64,000 nt of DNA from positions 186,001 to 250,000 of the forward strand of contig NZ_OY762512.1 in NCBI RefSeq assembly GCF_963665995.1, given 5' to 3'. This stretch comes from Pleurocapsa sp. FMAR1. Its GTDB lineage: Bacteria > Cyanobacteriota > Cyanobacteriia > Cyanobacteriales > Xenococcaceae. The notes beneath the pieces are model-generated. The model had not been told where the DNA came from. It ran no database searches and was given only the letters and a program-made list of their open reading frames with translations. The position numbers were made by a program, and so were the translations under genes. This document shows, one piece after another, positions 50,977 to 61,676 of this stretch (position 1 is its first letter; every line of letters begins with the position of its first letter).

Positions 50977-52358
50977 TTAAACATAGTAGATATCAAATAA
51001 ACAACTAAATCCCGCAGTCATACCTGGAAAGACTTCATACACTGCATCTGATAATCCTAAGCCTAATTTCCAAAGTAGAGAAACTACGATACCTGAAATC
51101 ATGATGGCGATCGCAGCAGGAGTAGAGACAGGTTTTTCATAGCACCTTAATATTAGCAAGACTCCCAAACCAGAAGCTAAAATCGACCAAGCAAAGGTGA
51201 TTAAACCAAATACGCTATCGTTATTAGCAAGCGCAATTATTAAGACAATTGCGGTAACAATTAAAGTACCTATTTTGGCGTATTTATAGGACTTGGCTAA
51301 TCCTGGAAACAAGTCTTGAGTTAAAGCAGCAGAACAAGACAGTATTTGAGAATCGGCAGTAGAAATAGTACAGCAGCAAATAAGCCAGCTAACATTACTC
51401 CGACTAATATTCCTGGTAACAATTCCTGAGATAAATCGAGCAAAGCTAACTCTGGATCGCTTAAGTTTGGTAATATTGTTCTGGCTGCAAAGCCAATAAA
51501 AATGGCAGTAAAAGCAGTAATAAAACCGCAAATAGTTCTGATATTTCGTGCTTTGTTCATATTATCAGCCGAATCTAGTGCCATAGCCCTGACTAGTATG
51601 TGAGGCTGTCCAACAGCACCAAATCCCGCTACTAGCCAGCCGATGAAGAATGGCAAAAATCCCCAGGCTAAATCGCTCGGAAATAAAGCTACCAAGTTTG
51701 CATCTATCTGTCTTAAGTTGGTAAATATGTTACCAACTCCATCACCTGCAAAGATAGTGACGGTAAACAACAGTAGCAACGCACCAATCATCACAATAGT
51801 TTGTACTGAGTCTGTCCAAATTGAGGCGCGAATGCCTCCAGAGAAGCAGTAGACAACTACAATGATTGCACCAATGATAATCCCCCAAGCATAATCCCAA
51901 CCAAAAAGACTATTTAATGCTTTACTTCCTGCTAGCAGTTGCGCTGCTGCATAAGCACCCAAGAAGAAAATTGTAATCAACGCTGAAATAACAGAGATCC
52001 AGCGATAACCGGGTTGCTTTTGTGCCAGAAATGCAGGCACAGTTTCAGAGTCAGATGCTTCTGAAACTTGGCGTAATTGCTTAAAAACGAACGTCCAAGC
52101 TAGATAGTCGCCGATCGCCCAGCCGATCGCTAGCCAAATTGCTGATAAACCTTGAGTGTAAGCATATCCTACTTGCCCAGTAAATAAAAACCCACTTTGT
52201 CCAGTAGATAAAGCAGATAAAGCGATCGCCCAAGGATTAACATTTCTCCCTGCAAGTAGGTAATCACTCGTACTGTCTTGCTTCTGAGTTGCTGCATAAG
52301 TACCTACAATAGTAAATAATAGCAGAAAAAATAAAAAGGAAATTAGGGTCAAAGCCAT
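50977..52358 (-). pseudogene. Sodium:solute symporter (PutP-like), frameshifted
   Basis: Two overlapping frames together make one SSS transporter. The first (52358 to about 51370) carries STSDYLLAGRNVNPWAIALS, FSGGIRASIWTDSVQTIVM and VAGFGAVGQPHILVRAMALD, and breaks after MLAGLFAA. The second frame resumes with TISTADSQILSCSAALTQDL. The join needs removal of two bases (GT, plus-strand 51370-51371) or one insertion. The shape is that of Na+/proline symporters, of near full length (about 460). It is either a recent pseudogene or a sequence error; no other stop was seen in the merged frame. Confidence 0.85.
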
Positions 52359-53670: not shown

Positions 53671-54720
53671 CTATAAACTAAATTCCATTCCTGATAGGCT
53701 ATTATTGGTTTTAATAACCTGTTCGAGTTTAAAACCACTCTTGGCAAACAATTCTTGAAACTGTTTTTTAGTGCGCCAACCACCACCAGGAGTAGCGACA
53801 TTTATTTGTACCGCAAAAATACCTGGCATTATTCCATCCGCTTCGGTTTTAGGTTCATCGATATCGGGAACAAAAGACTGTAGAAGGATTAGTTTGCCAT
53901 CATCGGGTAATGCTGCTTTGCAGTTTGCCAAAATTTTCATCGCATCTTCGTCACTCCAGGCAGAGATAAAGTGCTTCATGACGATCGCATTTGCCCCTTT
54001 TGGTATCTCTTGAAAGACATCTCCAGTTTTGATTTCAATATCATCTGGATCGACACCCAAACTGCCAATATATTCCCTGGCTGTTTCTGCAACATCAGGC
54101 ACATCAAACAAAATCCCCTTACAGCCATAACGTTTAACGATGTTGGCTATCAAGCCGCCCTGTCCACCACCGACATCCATTACCGTTTCATACTGACCAA
54201 AATCATAGGCATCTAGCAAACCATCTACCTGTGAGTTGGTTAGGAAACTCATGGCTTTGATAAAAGTATCTTTACTCCAGTCGTTGTCGTAACAGTATTG
54301 ATAAACACCTTTATCATTAGCCAACTCAAAAGGAACTACACCCTTGGCTAATGCCTCTGGTAAAACTTTCCAAGCATCCCACTGTGCAGGTTCAATGAGG
54401 TGCATTGCTAAATGCCCTACGGACGGTTCTTTGTTGGTTACTAATAAGGTGGATGTTTCTGTAGCTGCGAATACTCGTCCTGCTTTTTCTTCTAATACCT
54501 CAACATGAGCTAAAGCGCGGAGAATAAAGTACAGTCGTTCGGTATCAGTATTTGTTTTATCTGCCAAACTCTCTACAGTTTGTTCTCCAATATCATCAAG
54601 TAAATTAAAAATTCCTAAACGAGTTGCTGTATAAAGACATTGACTTTTTACAAAGGTCAACATTAGATCGAAAGCTCTTTTTTTTGCTTCGGTATTGGGA
54701 TTTGCGCGAGTAGATACCAT
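53671..54720 (-). CDS. O-methyltransferase-like enzyme in mycosporine cluster, catalytic His missing
   Basis: A 349-residue methyltransferase of the plant-OMT / hydroxyneurosporene type: helical dimerisation domain (about 10-110), SAM motif VMDVGGGQGGL (180-190), LFDVPDV (204-210) and GDVF. In this family the base lies in a 'HDW.D' segment; here the aligned segment is MKHFISAWSDED (248-259), with Ser-Ala in place of His-Asp. It lies 210 bases downstream of mysC on the same strand, where mysD or mysE is usual. A role in tailoring mycosporine is inferred, not shown. Confidence 0.8.
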   Translation of the reverse strand: MVSTRANPNTEAKKRAFDLMLTFVKSQCLYTATRLGIFNLLDDIGEQTVESLADKTNTDTERLYFILRALAHVEVLEEKAGRVFAATETSTLLVTNKEPSVGHLAMHLIEPAQWDAWKVLPEALAKGVVPFELANDKGVYQYCYDNDWSKDTFIKAMSFLTNSQVDGLLDAYDFGQYETVMDVGGGQGGLIANIVKRYGCKGILFDVPDVAETAREYIGSLGVDPDDIEIKTGDVFQEIPKGANAIVMKHFISAWSDEDAMKILANCKAALPDDGKLILLQSFVPDIDEPKTEADGIMPGIFAVQINVATPGGGWRTKKQFQELFAKSGFKLEQVIKTNNSLSGMEFSL

Positions 54721-54778
54721 TTTGATTACTGATTATTAAAACAGTCTGTACAATATTTAATGATTTAATGTTTTAGCG

Positions 54779-54842
54779 AGGTGGGCAAAATCGGCTTATT
54801 GAACTTGTTGTACAATTTGAATTTTAGACTTGCCCACCCTAC
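54779..54842. repeat. Dispersed repeat with TGGGCAA/TTGCCCA ends, second copy
   Basis: AGGTGGGCAA (54779-54788) is mirrored by TTGCCCACC (54830-54838), with a CTAC end. Same arrangement as the copy at 15426-15491. Lies between mysC and the extra methyltransferase. Confidence 0.6.
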
Positions 54843-54851
54843 AAATTGATA

Positions 54852-54928
54852 AATGTTTAATGCTCGCCCTCGACAGTTTGCTCAACGGGGGCAACCCCCG
54901 CAACGCAACTGTCTCGCAATGTTCAATG
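54852..54928 (+). repeat. Dispersed double-hairpin repeat with flanking direct repeats
   Basis: The 55-bp core (54863-54917) reads CTCGCCCTCGACAGTTTGCT, then an inner CAACGGGGGCAACCCCCG hairpin, CAACGC and the closing ACTGTCTCGC. It is bordered by AATGTTTAATG (54852-54862) and AATGTTCAATG (54918-54928), an 11-base direct repeat with one mismatch, like an aged target-site duplication. Confidence 0.75.
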
Positions 54929-54930
54929 TT

Positions 54931-56310
54931 TCAGTCTCCGCCGATTTCGACTAATTTGCCGATATTAAAATCGATTTTGACCCAGCCTTGAAGACGACGT
55001 AAATTATCGAGTAAAAGCAAAGGAATTTGCCAGTTATGCAGCATTAAAAAGGGTAAAGGATCGTCTGGGCTTAGAACAGCGTCAGTTCCTTTGGTTATCT
55101 TTTGCCACCAAGCTTTAAGTTCTGCTAAAGAACGGATACTTAATAACCTCCAGAGTTCGTGATACGTCCAGTAGGTAGGTTTGCTATCGGGTAAAGGAGT
55201 AATGGGCTGTTCTTGTGGTTCACCATCTGATAGATAAGCTTCTGCTACTCCTGAATGATCGTGAAACATAGTAATGGCAGAATGCAGACGAGGATTACAT
55301 TCAATGGGATAAACTGTTCCGTCTTCTGTTTGAATCATGTCAAAACAAATTTGTCCTGTTAGATTCATTTTCTGCACAAAGGTTTTTACCCATTGATAGA
55401 TCGTGGGATTATCTACCTGTTCGTAATTAACCTGAGAAGGAGAAGATTTAGAACAGCAGTGCAGTCTAATTTTTCCCTTGCGGACAGTTGCATGAAAGCA
55501 ATATTCTTGTCCGCGAATAAATTCTTGCATTACCCAGGGCTTTGCTTCGCTAATAGGTAAACTACGAACATAGTCTTCCATTTCTGAAAAGGGCAATCTA
55601 GTTAAATCTAGTCGCAATACCGAATCATAAGGAATACTTTTAACAATATATTTACTACCGTCACTCTCGAAATCGAAGTCTAGGATCTGTTGCGGATCGG
55701 TAATACGAAATACTTTAGGTGCAGATAAACCTAGTTCTCTAGCTTTTGAGCAAAAGGCGTGTTTATCGTCAAGAATGGCAGTAACTTCTGGATCGAGATG
55801 AATTGATTCGCAGTAAGGTTCTAAAGCTTTCTTGGCTAAAGAATCATAGTAGCTAGAAATGGGACTGGATACGGGAACAAAAAGATCGATATCTTGCTTT
55901 TTGGCTATATCAACTAAAGCTTGACAGTATGCCTCTGGTTCTTTTTCGGGAACAGGTACGGTAAAAAACCCTTTGACAGCGCGGGAAAAACGATGACCCG
56001 ACAGCCAATATTTATGGGTTTCTACCAGATATACTTCATGTCCATCTCTGTGGAAAGATCTTGCTAGCTGTAACGCCTTGGTCATTTTTGCACCTGTGAT
56101 CAGGATGCGTTTTTTTTCCGTTGGGGTATTGGGCGCGATCGCGCGATCGCCCTTACCTGAGATGATATTTTTAATCATAGACAAAAACACCAACGCCAAA
56201 TTAAAAGGAAGTAACAGCAATAGTAATGCCAGTGTACCCAAATTTTTGGCGATGCCTTCGGCTAGCTTCGCAATCGCCAAACCACGGGAAATAAATAATG
56301 TTTGCGCCAT
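54931..56310 (-). CDS. mysC: Mycosporine-glycine synthase (ATP-grasp ligase) MysC
   Basis: An ATP-grasp ligase joining glycine to 4-deoxygadusol to form mycosporine-glycine. ATG 56310 (MAQTLFISRG) is preferred over 56331, matching the N-terminus of Anabaena MysC. A hydrophobic segment (about 23-42) precedes ILITGAKMTKALQLARSFHR. Also present: KYWLSGHRFSRAVKGFFTVP, VPVSSPISSYYDSLAKKALE, the ATP-grasp CFDMIQTEDGTVYPIECNPR and the end LRRLQGWVKIDFNIGKLVEI. It is separated from mysB by 56 bases containing a perfect palindrome. Confidence 0.95.
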   Translation of the reverse strand: MAQTLFISRGLAIAKLAEGIAKNLGTLALLLLLLPFNLALVFLSMIKNIISGKGDRAIAPNTPTEKKRILITGAKMTKALQLARSFHRDGHEVYLVETHKYWLSGHRFSRAVKGFFTVPVPEKEPEAYCQALVDIAKKQDIDLFVPVSSPISSYYDSLAKKALEPYCESIHLDPEVTAILDDKHAFCSKARELGLSAPKVFRITDPQQILDFDFESDGSKYIVKSIPYDSVLRLDLTRLPFSEMEDYVRSLPISEAKPWVMQEFIRGQEYCFHATVRKGKIRLHCCSKSSPSQVNYEQVDNPTIYQWVKTFVQKMNLTGQICFDMIQTEDGTVYPIECNPRLHSAITMFHDHSGVAEAYLSDGEPQEQPITPLPDSKPTYWTYHELWRLLSIRSLAELKAWWQKITKGTDAVLSPDDPLPFLMLHNWQIPLLLLDNLRRLQGWVKIDFNIGKLVEIGGD

Positions 56311-56335
56311 CTGAAATAAATTCAAGTACATTGTG

Positions 56336-56363
56336 GTAGGGGCGTTTCGCGAAACGCCCCTAC
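56336..56363. repeat. 28-bp perfect palindrome between mysB and mysC
   Basis: GTAGGGGCGTTTCG (56336-56349) followed directly by its reverse complement CGAAACGCCCCTAC (56350-56363), with no loop. It lies in the mysB-mysC gap, 5 bases before the longest mysC frame. GTAGGGGCG...CGCCCCTAC ends are seen in many cyanobacterial repeats. It could fold in the mRNA and separate the expression of the two genes. Confidence 0.85.
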
Positions 56364-56366
56364 GGG

Positions 56367-57203
56367 TTATTTACGCTTAATGAGGGTTACGCCATCCCGC
56401 AAGGGAATCATCACCTGTTCGACACGAGGATCTTCGGCAACAAAGCGGTTAAAACGGGCGATCGCCTTACCATTTTCTGTCCGTTGTTCTTCGGGCAAAT
56501 AAGGTTGTCCCTGCATCAGAGTATTATCTACACAGATAAAACCATCAGGTGTTAACAAATTACTCTCCAATAACAGGTTGACATAATTGATATATCCACC
56601 TTTATCAGCATCGATAAACACCAAATCAAAAGACTCCCCCGTATCTATTAGCTGATTCACAGTCTCAATTGCGGGGGCAACCTTAACCTCAATTTTTTTA
56701 CCGTGGGTAGAAGCAGCAAAACAGTCGATCGCAAACTGGGAAACGTATTCGTCTACTTCGCAAGCAAGTAAGTAACCGTCATCTGGTAAAGCTTCGGCGA
56801 TCGCTAAAGCGGAATAACCAGTGAACATACCAATTTCTAGTACGCGCTTGGACTTGCTGATAGACACCAACATCTTGAGTAGTTGTCCTTCAATATGCCC
56901 AGAAAGCATTTCTTGTTCTAAAGCGCGAACCGTTTCGCCATCGTCAAAACGTTTACTCCAGTCTTCTTTTTGGGTTCTATCTGTCAAATTAGCTAGAGCC
57001 TCTGATTCAGAAGTAGTGCAGGCTTCTAAATAGGGGTCGATTCCCGCAGCTAAATGATATGCTTCGTCTAAGAATGTTTTAAATTCAGTTGAAATCGATT
57101 CTGTTTTGGCTGCGTTTAGAATGTGTTCTAGCTGCTGGACAAGAATCCCTAAAGGAGTAACTGGTCTTGCGGTTTTCTTCTGAGCTTCTGCTGTTCCCAC
57201 CAC
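56367..57203 (-). CDS. mysB: 4-Deoxygadusol O-methyltransferase MysB
   Basis: A 278-residue SAM-dependent methyltransferase of the caffeoyl-CoA OMT type that makes 4-deoxygadusol from the mysA product. LEIGMFTGYSALAIAEALPD (motif I), FDLVFIDADKGGYINYVNLL (metal-binding Asp region) and GFICVDNTLMQGQPY match MysB of Anabaena. It starts two bases after the mysA stop, so translation is coupled. Confidence 0.95.
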   Translation of the reverse strand: MVGTAEAQKKTARPVTPLGILVQQLEHILNAAKTESISTEFKTFLDEAYHLAAGIDPYLEACTTSESEALANLTDRTQKEDWSKRFDDGETVRALEQEMLSGHIEGQLLKMLVSISKSKRVLEIGMFTGYSALAIAEALPDDGYLLACEVDEYVSQFAIDCFAASTHGKKIEVKVAPAIETVNQLIDTGESFDLVFIDADKGGYINYVNLLLESNLLTPDGFICVDNTLMQGQPYLPEEQRTENGKAIARFNRFVAEDPRVEQVMIPLRDGVTLIKRK

Positions 57204-57205
57204 GA

Positions 57206-58450
57206 CTATCTACTCCCTGCTAACGCTTCTTCAGTTGATTCTTTGCCTTCATTCATGTATACTTGCGTTCCTAAACCTGAATCAGGATAGTCGGCGCAAA
57301 TACGTCTGTGTTCGGCTAAAGTTTCTTCCAACTCGTCTTTTTCTAGGTCGTTGATAAAGAAACAAGTTCCAATCGGTTTGGGTACGGCTGCTCTAAGTAA
57401 ACCATCTCTAGTTTGGGTAATAGATTCACCAGCTTTCCACAGTAAGTCTATATCTAAAACTGGGTTATCTAATGCCAGTCCGATATTATTCATGGTGGTT
57501 AAAATGCGATCGCGATCTTCAGGAGTAATATAGCCTCGCGTTGCTGCTATTGTAGCCGACAGTGCCATGTCAATATTGACCGCATGACCATGATATAGAG
57601 GAATTTCTGGAGTAAGCTCAAAGGTAGGACTCCAGGTATGTCCGTAAGCAATTACCCGATCTAAATCTAGTTCGTGGAGGTTGGGTGCTTCCAACTCCAG
57701 CATTTTTTTGATTGCTTTATAAGTTAGCTTACGTCCAATTTCACGGATTTCTTCACTACCGTTAAGATAACCAAAGCGAGTCTCTAATAGTTCTTTGCCA
57801 TATTTTTCTAATAGCTCAAACACCTCTTTATGAGAGACTACGGCAATTTTGACTAATTCTGCCATTCCATTACGCACCTGTGCTTCTGGTAAAGTACGTA
57901 GAAAAGAAAAGTCAAGAATTACTTTTTTCGAGGCGTGATAAGCACCAAGACGATTCTTTAGTTTCTTGTGGTTAACTGCAACCTTGATAGCTACACTAGC
58001 ATCAACCAAGCCAATCATAGTCGTAGGAATGCGAATATAGTTGCTGCTGCGACGATAACTAGCACAAGCAAAACCAGCCACGTCAGTAATCAAACCACCA
58101 CCAACTACTAATACAGGCTCTTTACGTACCAAACCAAAATCAGCAAAAGCGTCAACTATCTTTTCTAAAGTTTGTAAACTCTTATCTAACTCACTAATAA
58201 TGATCGCGAAGACTGTTAAATCGATATCGTAATGCTTGAAGTATGCTTCGATTTGGTCTTTGTAAAGCCGATGCACGTTAGCATCTACAACCATTAAGCA
58301 GCGTCCGAACTTTTCATAGCTGTCTGCAATTTCTCTATTTTTGGTATCAAACACTCCTTCTACAAACAGAAGATCGTACTCAATTTTTTCGTAGCCTTCA
58401 ACTCTAAACGCTGTGTCTGTAGCTACAAATTTTGCTTCAATTTGACTCAT
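57206..58450 (-). CDS. mysA: 2-Demethyl-4-deoxygadusol synthase MysA
   Basis: A 414-residue sugar phosphate cyclase using sedoheptulose 7-phosphate, the entry step to mycosporines. [18 protein letters not shown] is the characteristic start. [20 protein letters not shown] (NAD-binding), [40 protein letters not shown] and [20 protein letters not shown] (metal His) follow. The pattern is that of DDGS rather than 3-dehydroquinate synthase. First gene of the mys operon, with a 1.1-kb non-coding region upstream that should hold its promoter. Confidence 0.96.
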
Positions 58451-59859: not shown

Positions 59860-61676
59860 TTACAATCTCGGATCGACAGGTTCGCTTTCGAGTGCCAACA
59901 CTCCAAACACACATTCATGAACCTTTCTCAATGGTTCGTTACTGACAAAACGCTTTAAAGCCTCAACACCAAGAGCAAATTCTCTGAGGGCGAGCGATCG
60001 CTTCTTGAACGGCGCATTCGCGCCAGCGTCCCGAAGGGACTTTGAGGCGTTAGCCTCTGTGTCGCAGAAGACGGGGGTAACCCCCCTTCGGGTGAAGCAG
60101 TTTCGCAGGGCGGGGTACCGCCCAAGTCGCGTCTAGCGACAGGCTCTGGAGAGCCTCGCCTAACGGGAGGAAAGTCGGCACGTTCCAACGTGCGCTGCTT
60201 TGCAGCCTGCAGCGGGGAAACCCCGCCACTCTCAGCAATAGCGCTACTCGGAGGGAACCTCCGCAACGCTTTGCTTCGCAACGAACTGCTTCACCGCAAC
60301 GCGCTGCATCGCTTTCTAGTCAAGCCTCTTTGTTTGAGTCGTTCTAGATGTTCTGGTAATGAGTATTCCAAACTGTAGATAATTCTGAGATATTCCGCAC
60401 GACGAGCAAGTAATTTTGTCTTGATTGAAGAACTTTCTCCCAGTACAAGTATAGCAAATACCAATTCCTTCATCTCTAATACCAAAGCCTTTTTCAACCA
60501 CGCTTTCATCGCGACACAAAACAACTATGACGCGAGAACCCATGTGTTTTTCTTCACAGATAACTTGCTTGACATTATGTTGCTGATAATAAGTAAAAGC
60601 TTCAGTAGGATGTTCTAAAAAATCTGGTAGTTTGGATGTGGCGACAGGAGACATAGTGGGAGGAAGATAAATAAGCCATTTGGGATTGACCGCAAAACGG
60701 CTCATAACTTCTAAAGCAGTAATGCTTTGGTCTTCGCGGATGACGATCTTGCCATAGATATCAGTATTGATAAACCGTTTACCCGTTACGTCTTCAATAT
60801 CTAAGACATCATTCTGTTGCTGAAAATTGTTATTGATTTCTGCATCCAAAGGTTTAGCAGGTTGGCAATACACCTTAGCAGCATTGACGCTAACTAATTC
60901 TCGTTCGGGATAGCGCAAGGCGGTTAACTTTCCACCAAAAACACAACCCGTATCAATATCAATAGTATTATTCAACCATTCTGCCTCTGGTACTGGAGTA
61001 TGTCCGTAGACAACGATCGCCTGACCGCGATATTCTCTCGCCCATTCGTAACGAACGGGAAAACCAAACTCGTCTATTTCTCCTGTAGTTTCACCATAGA
61101 GAGCAAAATATCGAAAGCACCCCGTTCGTGTTTGCGGTTGGTCCACATTGGTTGGATAGCAACTTCTACCGCTTCAATTTCCTCGACAGAAGACAGCTTA
61201 TAGATAAATCTAAAACCCTCCCGTTTTAAATTCTTGAGCGATCTCTTTAAACTACGAGCATGGTTTTTGACCACGTGAGAGCCAAACTGTCGATCTGGTC
61301 GTTGTTTGTTTCTTTCGTGACATATCGACTCAGGCAGATCGAAAACAATTGCTGCTGCAAAACAATGAAACTGTTTGGCTAAATTAATTAAAGGCTTACG
61401 GCTTTCTGGCTGTACATTAGAAGAAGCAACATAAGGGCGATAGTTTACATATTGTTCTAAAAGGCTGTCTTTTGCTGAGAGTTTACCCCGAACTAATTCT
61501 ATTGGGTCGATGTCTAAAAGTAAGGCTGCGGTGCAGCGTTCTGTAGTTGCTTCTGGATAGAATACGTGTGCTTTACCAACCGAAACCCAGAATGTCTGAC
61601 ATTTATTTGGATGTTTGTGGAGTAAATATCCTAAGTCTGTAGCGGGTTGATGGGTAGTAGTAATAGTCAACAGCAT
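59860..61676 (-). pseudogene. Collapsed hen1-pnkp RNA repair locus
   Basis: Pieces of two neighbouring genes are joined. Frame 1 (from 61676) begins with the Hen1 N-terminus, MLLTITTTHQPATDLGYLLH to about residue 88. It then jumps into the kinase part of Pnkp (FHCFAAAIVFDLPESICHER, residues about 90-189). Near 61105 a second deletion leads, in another frame, to the Pnkp phosphatase end ([35 protein letters not shown]) and ligase start ([18 protein letters not shown]). A third deletion near 60430 removes most of the ligase. Its tail, [19 protein letters not shown] then LALREFALGVEALKRF, ends at 59860, split by a 304-bp insertion. Walker A, the Hen1 catalytic half and the phosphatase start are lost. 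Confidence 0.88.
60004..60307. mobile_element. 304-bp palindromic hairpin array inserted in pnkp remnant
   Basis: Bordered by direct repeats ATCGCTT (59997-60003 and 60308-60314). It consists of about ten short hairpins with tiny loops, such as GCACGTTCCAACGTGC, GCGGGGAAACCCCGC, GGGGGTAACCCCCC, GCTGCTTTGCAGC and GAGGCGTTAGCCTC. Removing the insert with one repeat restores the Pnkp ligase frame exactly (LTRKRSLALREFALG). Open frames crossing it are artefacts of base composition. Confidence 0.85.

Follow-up and report, generated by a model that had tools for sequence, protein, structure and literature searches.

What does a second methyltransferase contribute when its gene stands directly behind the three genes expected to make mycosporine-glycine? 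The question is raised by a 64,000-nucleotide stretch of Pleurocapsa sp. FMAR1 (the window; contig NZ_OY762512.1, positions 186,001 to 250,000), in which four intact open reading frames (ORFs), all on the minus strand and spanning 53671-58450, form the operon mysA-mysB-mysC-mysF. Our reading, to which we give about equal credence for and against, is that the operon gives mycosporine-glycine and that MysF then methylates this product, most likely on the glycine nitrogen. Mycosporine-like amino acids (MAAs) are candidate natural sunscreens that owe their diversity to a small number of tailoring enzymes, few of which have been assayed, and mysABC-mysF operons isolate one such enzyme behind the core pathway, so that its reaction should be directly readable. 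Knowing that reaction would settle which nitrogen is methylated and could supply the missing gene for a compound whose structure was solved by nuclear magnetic resonance (NMR); it would also reveal how catalysis proceeds in an O-methyltransferase fold that has lost the His-Glu-Glu triad.

MysF as the fourth gene of the operon

The best plasmid match of the fourth protein in a tblastn search was MysF of Nostoc sp. UHCC 0926, encoded on plasmid pn1 (52.8% over 97%), and the further plasmid matches listed were at 28-32% identity. Since the mysF-mysI-mysE genes of that strain are published, with MysF named in 2023 (PMC10510106), the window gene is identified as mysF; what the first-pass annotation called an unusual methyltransferase is a member of a described family. 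On pn1, mysF is followed by a TauD dioxygenase gene and then by a nonribosomal peptide synthetase (NRPS) gene. Homology between the two MysF proteins is full length and they fall into one clade against paralogues (support 0.96). The window protein has the PF00891 fold, the dimerisation domain and the S-adenosylmethionine (SAM) motif, adjoins mysC within an MAA cluster, and is distinct from MysB, which is a PF01596 protein. It lacks the COMT-type His-Glu-Glu triad, and MysI and a glycine-type MysE are missing beside it; adjacency to these two is a reported trait of the gene neighbourhood, not of the protein itself, and most relatives lack it too.

By similarity searches, on which all absences given here rest, mysF was found in 17 of 390 genomes sampled from the class and in 36 of 342 from the order, making 48 genomes in total, among samples that include drafts and may in part duplicate named loci. 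Conservation beside mysC, which the first-pass annotation had put forward as a check, was borne out: mysC is present in 16 of the 17 mysF genomes of the class sample, compared with 67 of all 390 genomes (hypergeometric p 1.7e-12). In 12 of these 16, mysF lies directly 3' of mysC, with gaps of 25-403 bp. Among 27 further neighbourhoods from the order sample, mysC is immediately upstream of mysF in 12 and a MysE-like NRPS stands beside or near mysF in 10. Moreover, the identities of mysF and mysC to the window copies covary (r 0.88), and Pleurocapsales share 72-84% identity across the mysBC-F block with Leptolyngbya/Phormidesmis-type genomes, which suggests that the block moved as a unit by transfer. 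A dN/dS of 0.04-0.06 against close relatives indicates that mysF is under purifying selection and, with its full length, rules out a degraded gene. Linkage across genera likewise excludes a chance neighbour of mysC, and a methyltransferase of an unrelated pathway is excluded by the nearest paralogues in the window genome, which are 28-34% identical and keep the triad residues.

Several elements of this arrangement are already known: MysF has been described as a methyltransferase of MAA clusters, Brasilonema carries an additional methyltransferase gene behind mysABC, and Pleurocapsales have clusters with no mysD or mysE and often no mysA. The Nostoc UHCC 0926 enzyme (PMC10510106) likewise comes from an MAA strain and shares the fold and the Ser/Gln/Trp triad positions described below, but belongs to another sub-branch (14 sequences, mostly beside MysE-like NRPS genes; support 0.57) and has Val at residue 254; the same paper states that MysI and MysE always accompany MysF, whereas the window mysF follows mysC with neither. 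The likeness to Brasilonema (PMC9918943) is one of position, directly after mysABC, and the cluster there differs in holding a transporter, a dioxygenase and mysE. The first-pass annotation pointed to a cluster without mysD and mysE, and a 2021 report had already described this for most Pleurocapsales mys clusters (PMC8472315). Those clusters have the same gene order and often lack mysA, as do L015, L016 (Pleurocapsa CCALA 161), L018 and L022; the accessible part of that report makes no mention of a methyltransferase, and the window strain differs in keeping mysA and in having mysD elsewhere. In the open-licence literature we did not find the mysABC-F form without MysI/MysE or its spread, the family-wide triad loss, or the proposal of glycine-nitrogen methylation.

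Loss of the catalytic triad

MysF reads ...VMKHFISAWSDED..., with Ser253-Ala254 at the place of the family His-Asp, exactly as the first-pass annotation had described. Every solved relative among the alignments listed, as well as the three paralogues of the window genome, has His-Asp/Asn at these positions. At the three triad positions, which we take to be the catalytic triad of plant COMT, CalO6, LaPhzM and AlpH carry His, Glu and Glu, and MmcR and DtpM differ from this only by an Asp at the position of residue 281. MysF shares with plant COMT and these PF00891 enzymes the fold, the dimerisation domain and the SAM motif, and differs from them in having Ser, Gln and Trp where they keep the catalytic residues. 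As judged from 46 unique MysF sequences compared with the three paralogues (Table 1), the whole His-Glu-Glu triad is lost family-wide, the His-Asp change being one third of this loss. His107, invariant in MysF and only there, is a candidate substitute base or substrate ligand.

The AlphaFold model of MysF (predicted local distance difference test score 88) has the PF00891 fold, and its top structural matches include LaPhzM, DtpM, RosA and MmcR, of which LaPhzM and RosA are N-methyltransferases. Loss of the base fits an acceptor that does not have to be deprotonated.

Proposed substrate and product of MysF

The partner genes carried by mysF genomes bear on which substrate MysF uses. At a relaxed cut-off, mysD was found in 3 of the 17 mysF genomes of the class sample (the window genome, G377 and, as a divergent copy, G328) and not in the other 14. 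Among mysC genomes it is rarer in company with mysF (3/16) than without it (28/51; Fisher p 0.02), a contrast that is conservative, as the mysF genomes were searched for mysD more permissively. A MysI orthologue was found only in UHCC 0926, and none in the window genome, and a HAD-linked TauD was found only in the window genome. G198, which is 99% complete and of the same genus by genome grouping, carries mysBC-F with a cyclase and returned no mysD, MysI or substantial NRPS match by similarity search. Several NRPSs are present in the window genome, the best a 47% match in the MysE search, with none near mysF or mysD. That genome also has three PhyH-family proteins, any of which might be a MysH, and PhyH proteins occur in 15 of the 17 mysF genomes. 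Because 14 of the 17 genomes have no detectable mysD and MysI was found only in UHCC 0926, MysF probably acts on the MysC product, mycosporine-glycine.

In the proposed route, MysA and MysB would make 4-deoxygadusol and MysC would convert it to mycosporine-glycine; the first-pass annotation's statement that these three genes are complete and should yield that compound agrees with the intact ORFs and their Pfam, NCBIfam and PDB matches. MysF would then methylate mycosporine-glycine, most likely on the glycine nitrogen installed by MysC, to give mycosporine-N-methylglycine (predicted [M+H]+ 260.113), which to our knowledge is unreported. In strains that also have a set of genes for palythine formation, as the remote mysD-HAD-TauD genes suggest for this one, an aplysiapalythine-D-type MAA would be expected ([M+H]+ 259.129, ~334 nm). 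The first-pass annotation had supposed that the extra methyltransferase modifies a mycosporine, perhaps on an amine or carbon; it was right in that this is a real, conserved pathway gene without the family base, for which N-methylation is the best-supported option, and was otherwise unsupported or incomplete. One sign that it named against a modified mycosporine was a mysD elsewhere together with only standard shinorine or porphyra products, and of this one half, the mysD elsewhere, was found.

Two described compounds are relevant to this proposal. Aplysiapalythine-D is the dominant MAA of alpine-lake benthic cyanobacteria, absorbs at 334 nm and carries its methyl group on the glycine nitrogen by NMR (PMC7821102), and is thus a cyanobacterial N-methylglycine MAA of the type predicted here. 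For the UHCC 0926 compound, with absorbance at 336 nm, its authors find glycosylated aplysiapalythine C the best fit to the mass data, but NMR could not verify the methyl or CH2COOH groups on the nitrogens (PMC10510106). A glycine N-methyltransferase would explain aplysiapalythine-D, the UHCC 0926 compound and the mysABC-F operons together. In its full form the claim states that MysF is a glycine-N-methyltransferase acting on mycosporine-glycine, that mysABC-mysF strains accumulate mycosporine-N-methylglycine as their end product, that the gene for aplysiapalythine-D has been found and that the published methyl position in UHCC 0926 is wrong; we advance this tentatively and would sooner doubt than assert it. 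In addition, a crude extract of Gloeocapsa BRSZ, for which a MysA-MysB-MysC cluster is reported, absorbs at ~325-330 nm and not at the 310 nm of mycosporine-glycine (PMC12967839). This absorbance would fit an N-methyl mycosporine-glycine and is a lead rather than evidence; mysF follows mysC in Gloeocapsopsis crepidinum LEGE 06123 (L023).

A number of points weigh against methylation of the glycine nitrogen. In mycosporine-glycine the enaminone nitrogen is weakly nucleophilic, and the triad loss neither diagnoses nor proves N-methylation, since His-Asp is retained in the N-methyltransferase LaPhzM. The mysD-HAD-TauD genes of the window genome keep a palythine route open. Neither a MysF enzyme assay nor assay or metabolite data from a mysABC-mysF strain were found in the open-licence literature. 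Aplysiapalythine-D has been assigned no gene and is not tied to a producing taxon, the lake flora including Tolypothrix, Schizothrix, Calothrix and Nostoc (PMC7821102), and the published scheme for MysF places the methyl group on the other nitrogen (PMC10510106).

That scheme, proposed for UHCC 0926 with palythine made there by MysE and MysI (PMC10510106), makes the free C3 nitrogen of palythine the acceptor for MysF and aplysiapalythine C the product, and in the window strain palythine would come via MysD and then HAD-TauD. The strain does have mysD beside HAD-TauD, expression of a Rhodococcus operon with this pair gave palythines in work cited as unpublished (PMC11888242), and other dioxygenases (the widespread PhyH proteins, or a different TauD beside mysC-mysF in L217) could supply part of the route. 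However, because mysD, MysI and the HAD-linked TauD are missing from most mysF genomes, no free C3 amine is expected there, and with the methyl position of the UHCC 0926 product left unverified by NMR, we regard C3 methylation as unlikely.

O-methylation, either of the glycine carboxylate to a methyl ester or of 4-deoxygadusol to an enol ether, would draw equally well on the loss of the base and of both supporting Glu residues, as each of these acceptors is an anion from the outset and requires no base, and the fold of MysF is an O-methyltransferase fold. Against this, we know of no such product from MAA-producing cyanobacteria. An N-methyl MAA, in the form of aplysiapalythine-D, is proven (PMC7821102), and we consider O-methylation an improbable explanation. 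It is quite improbable that MysF no longer methylates (as a scaffold, or in another SAM-using or SAM-independent reaction) or acts on a non-MAA substrate such as a sugar-containing compound, for although the complete triad loss, the annotation of the fold relative RdmB as a hydroxylase in the PDB, and the conserved GH32/GH43-like neighbours, including at loci with no mys gene nearby, point that way, the SAM motif is kept with Asp182 in 46/46 sequences, mysF is tightly linked to mysC, and the MAA made by UHCC 0926, the sole MysF strain whose chemistry has been examined, has a mass in keeping with one additional methyl group.

The remote mysD locus and the gene neighbourhood

The first-pass annotation reported that neither mysD nor mysE follows the operon, and none adjoins it; the genome does, however, hold a mysD (P0005, 341 aa) at G000:C1:2614870-2615892, 2.61 Mb along the contig and away from the operon, which rules out a genome lacking the gene. 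Its product shares 46-59% identity with proteins of 29 other genomes, in many of which mysC stands side by side with it, and all 30 genomes with a match have mysC. Downstream on the same strand follow two genes with overlapping ORFs, one for a HAD phosphatase-like protein and one for a TauD dioxygenase. HAD-TauD also lies beside mys genes in seven other cyanobacterial genomes (L170-L176), and an eighth copy (L177) ends at a contig edge, giving nine cyanobacterial genomes with the window genome included; the pair is next to mysD here and before mysABCD or mysBCD in the others. A 2025 preprint describes it in MAA clusters of Actinomycetota, Pseudomonadota and Bacillota and states that it is not present in Cyanobacteriota (PMC11888242); the likeness drawn here is by the gene pair beside mys genes, and no paper placing it in cyanobacteria was found in the open-licence literature. 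The window-genome TauD (P0006) is not the published MysI, as it shows no meaningful similarity to it (24% over 75 residues, E 0.06). Given this remote set, the strain probably makes imino-MAAs, and perhaps palythines too, from two distant loci; discontiguous MAA pathways are already known.

The host genome is a single contig of 5.43 Mb and, among named relatives, stands closest to Pleurocapsales (Pleurocapsa, Myxosarcina, Hyellaceae). Within the operon, the intergenic gaps are 2, 35 and 210 bp in the order mysA-mysB-mysC-mysF, and a scan of the coding strand found no terminator-like site inside it. The best PDB match of MysA is 5tpr (646 bits, residues 1-403), which is labelled '3-dehydroquinate synthase' and is the Anabaena DDGS; window mysA is 64-71% identical to the mysBC-adjoining mysA of other mysF genomes. 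mysB adjoins mysA and mysC in relatives too, and window mysC is nearest to the glycine-type MysC1 of UHCC 0926 (60%), the other two copies of that strain being at 55 and 53%.

Table 1. Positions of the operon genes and MysF residues in the window, and of the remote locus in the genome
Feature	Position	Strand	Description
mysA	57206..58450	-	414 aa; sugar-phosphate cyclase, desmethyl-4-deoxygadusol synthase type; PF01761/PF24621
mysB	56367..57203	-	278 aa, GTG start; O-methyltransferase making 4-deoxygadusol; PF01596, 180 bits
mysC	54931..56331	-	466 aa; ATP-grasp ligase; NF005315 520 bits, ATP-grasp_3
mysF	53671..54720	-	349 aa; SAM-dependent methyltransferase; PF08100+PF00891, 124 bits
His107 codon	54400..54402	-	H in 46/46; Leu/Val/Phe in paralogues
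SAM-binding motif DVGGGQG, residues 182-188	54157..54177	-	kept; Asp182 in 46/46
Ser253-Ala254 codons	53959..53964	-	TCT GCC, complement of 53964-53959; S253 in 46/46 unique MysF; His in 3/3 genome paralogues
Gln281 codon	53878..53880	-	first triad Glu position; Q in 46/46; Glu in 3/3 paralogues
Trp315 codon	53776..53778	-	second triad Glu (GGxERT) position; W in 46/46; Glu in 3/3 paralogues
mysD-HAD-TauD	G000:C1:2613085-2615892 (L057 8083-10893)		window genome

The core genes vary among the mysF loci. Remnants of the mysA N-terminus lie 5' of mysB in L022 (4506-4619) and L018 (3052-3273), indicating that mysA, intact in the window, decayed in sister lineages. A cyclase of ~590-630 aa that shares 36-39% identity with MysA and carries an additional N-terminal region (L020, L019, L044, L183 and G328:C1:1509937-1511061), replaces mysA beside mysBC-F or sits elsewhere in genomes without mysA. 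In L023 and L219-L223, the genes ahead of mysC-mysF encode a separate core-forming pair: another cyclase, at 35-36% identity to MysA, and a shorter methyltransferase, at 30-35% identity to MysB.

Other neighbours of mysF vary as well. A GH43-like gene, often accompanied by a GH32-like gene, is located near mysF in L021, L045-L050, L052-L054, L217, L218 and L224, at some loci without mysABC nearby, and these genes are perhaps tied to glycosylated MAAs. A TauD dioxygenase of a further type stands between mysB and mysC in L217 and directly before mysF in L021 (Hassallia). The NRPS adjoining mysF in L051 (4229-9403; G328) has condensation, adenylation, methyltransferase, carrier and thioesterase domains and may itself attach a methylated amino acid. 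An intact PF00474 symporter gene follows directly 3' of mysF in L018, L022, L212, L215 and L216; in the window, a sodium:solute symporter gene of this family (50977-52358) is broken into two frames, by a frameshift or an assembly error. The mysB-mysC gap of the window holds a palindrome with 12-bp arms, GTAGGGGCGTTTCGCGAAACGCCCCTAC (56336-56363), probably a dispersed repeat, and fragments of the Pnkp/Hen1 RNA-repair genes (PNKP_ligase, Hen1_L, AAA_33), apparently frame-broken, lie at 60316-61676.

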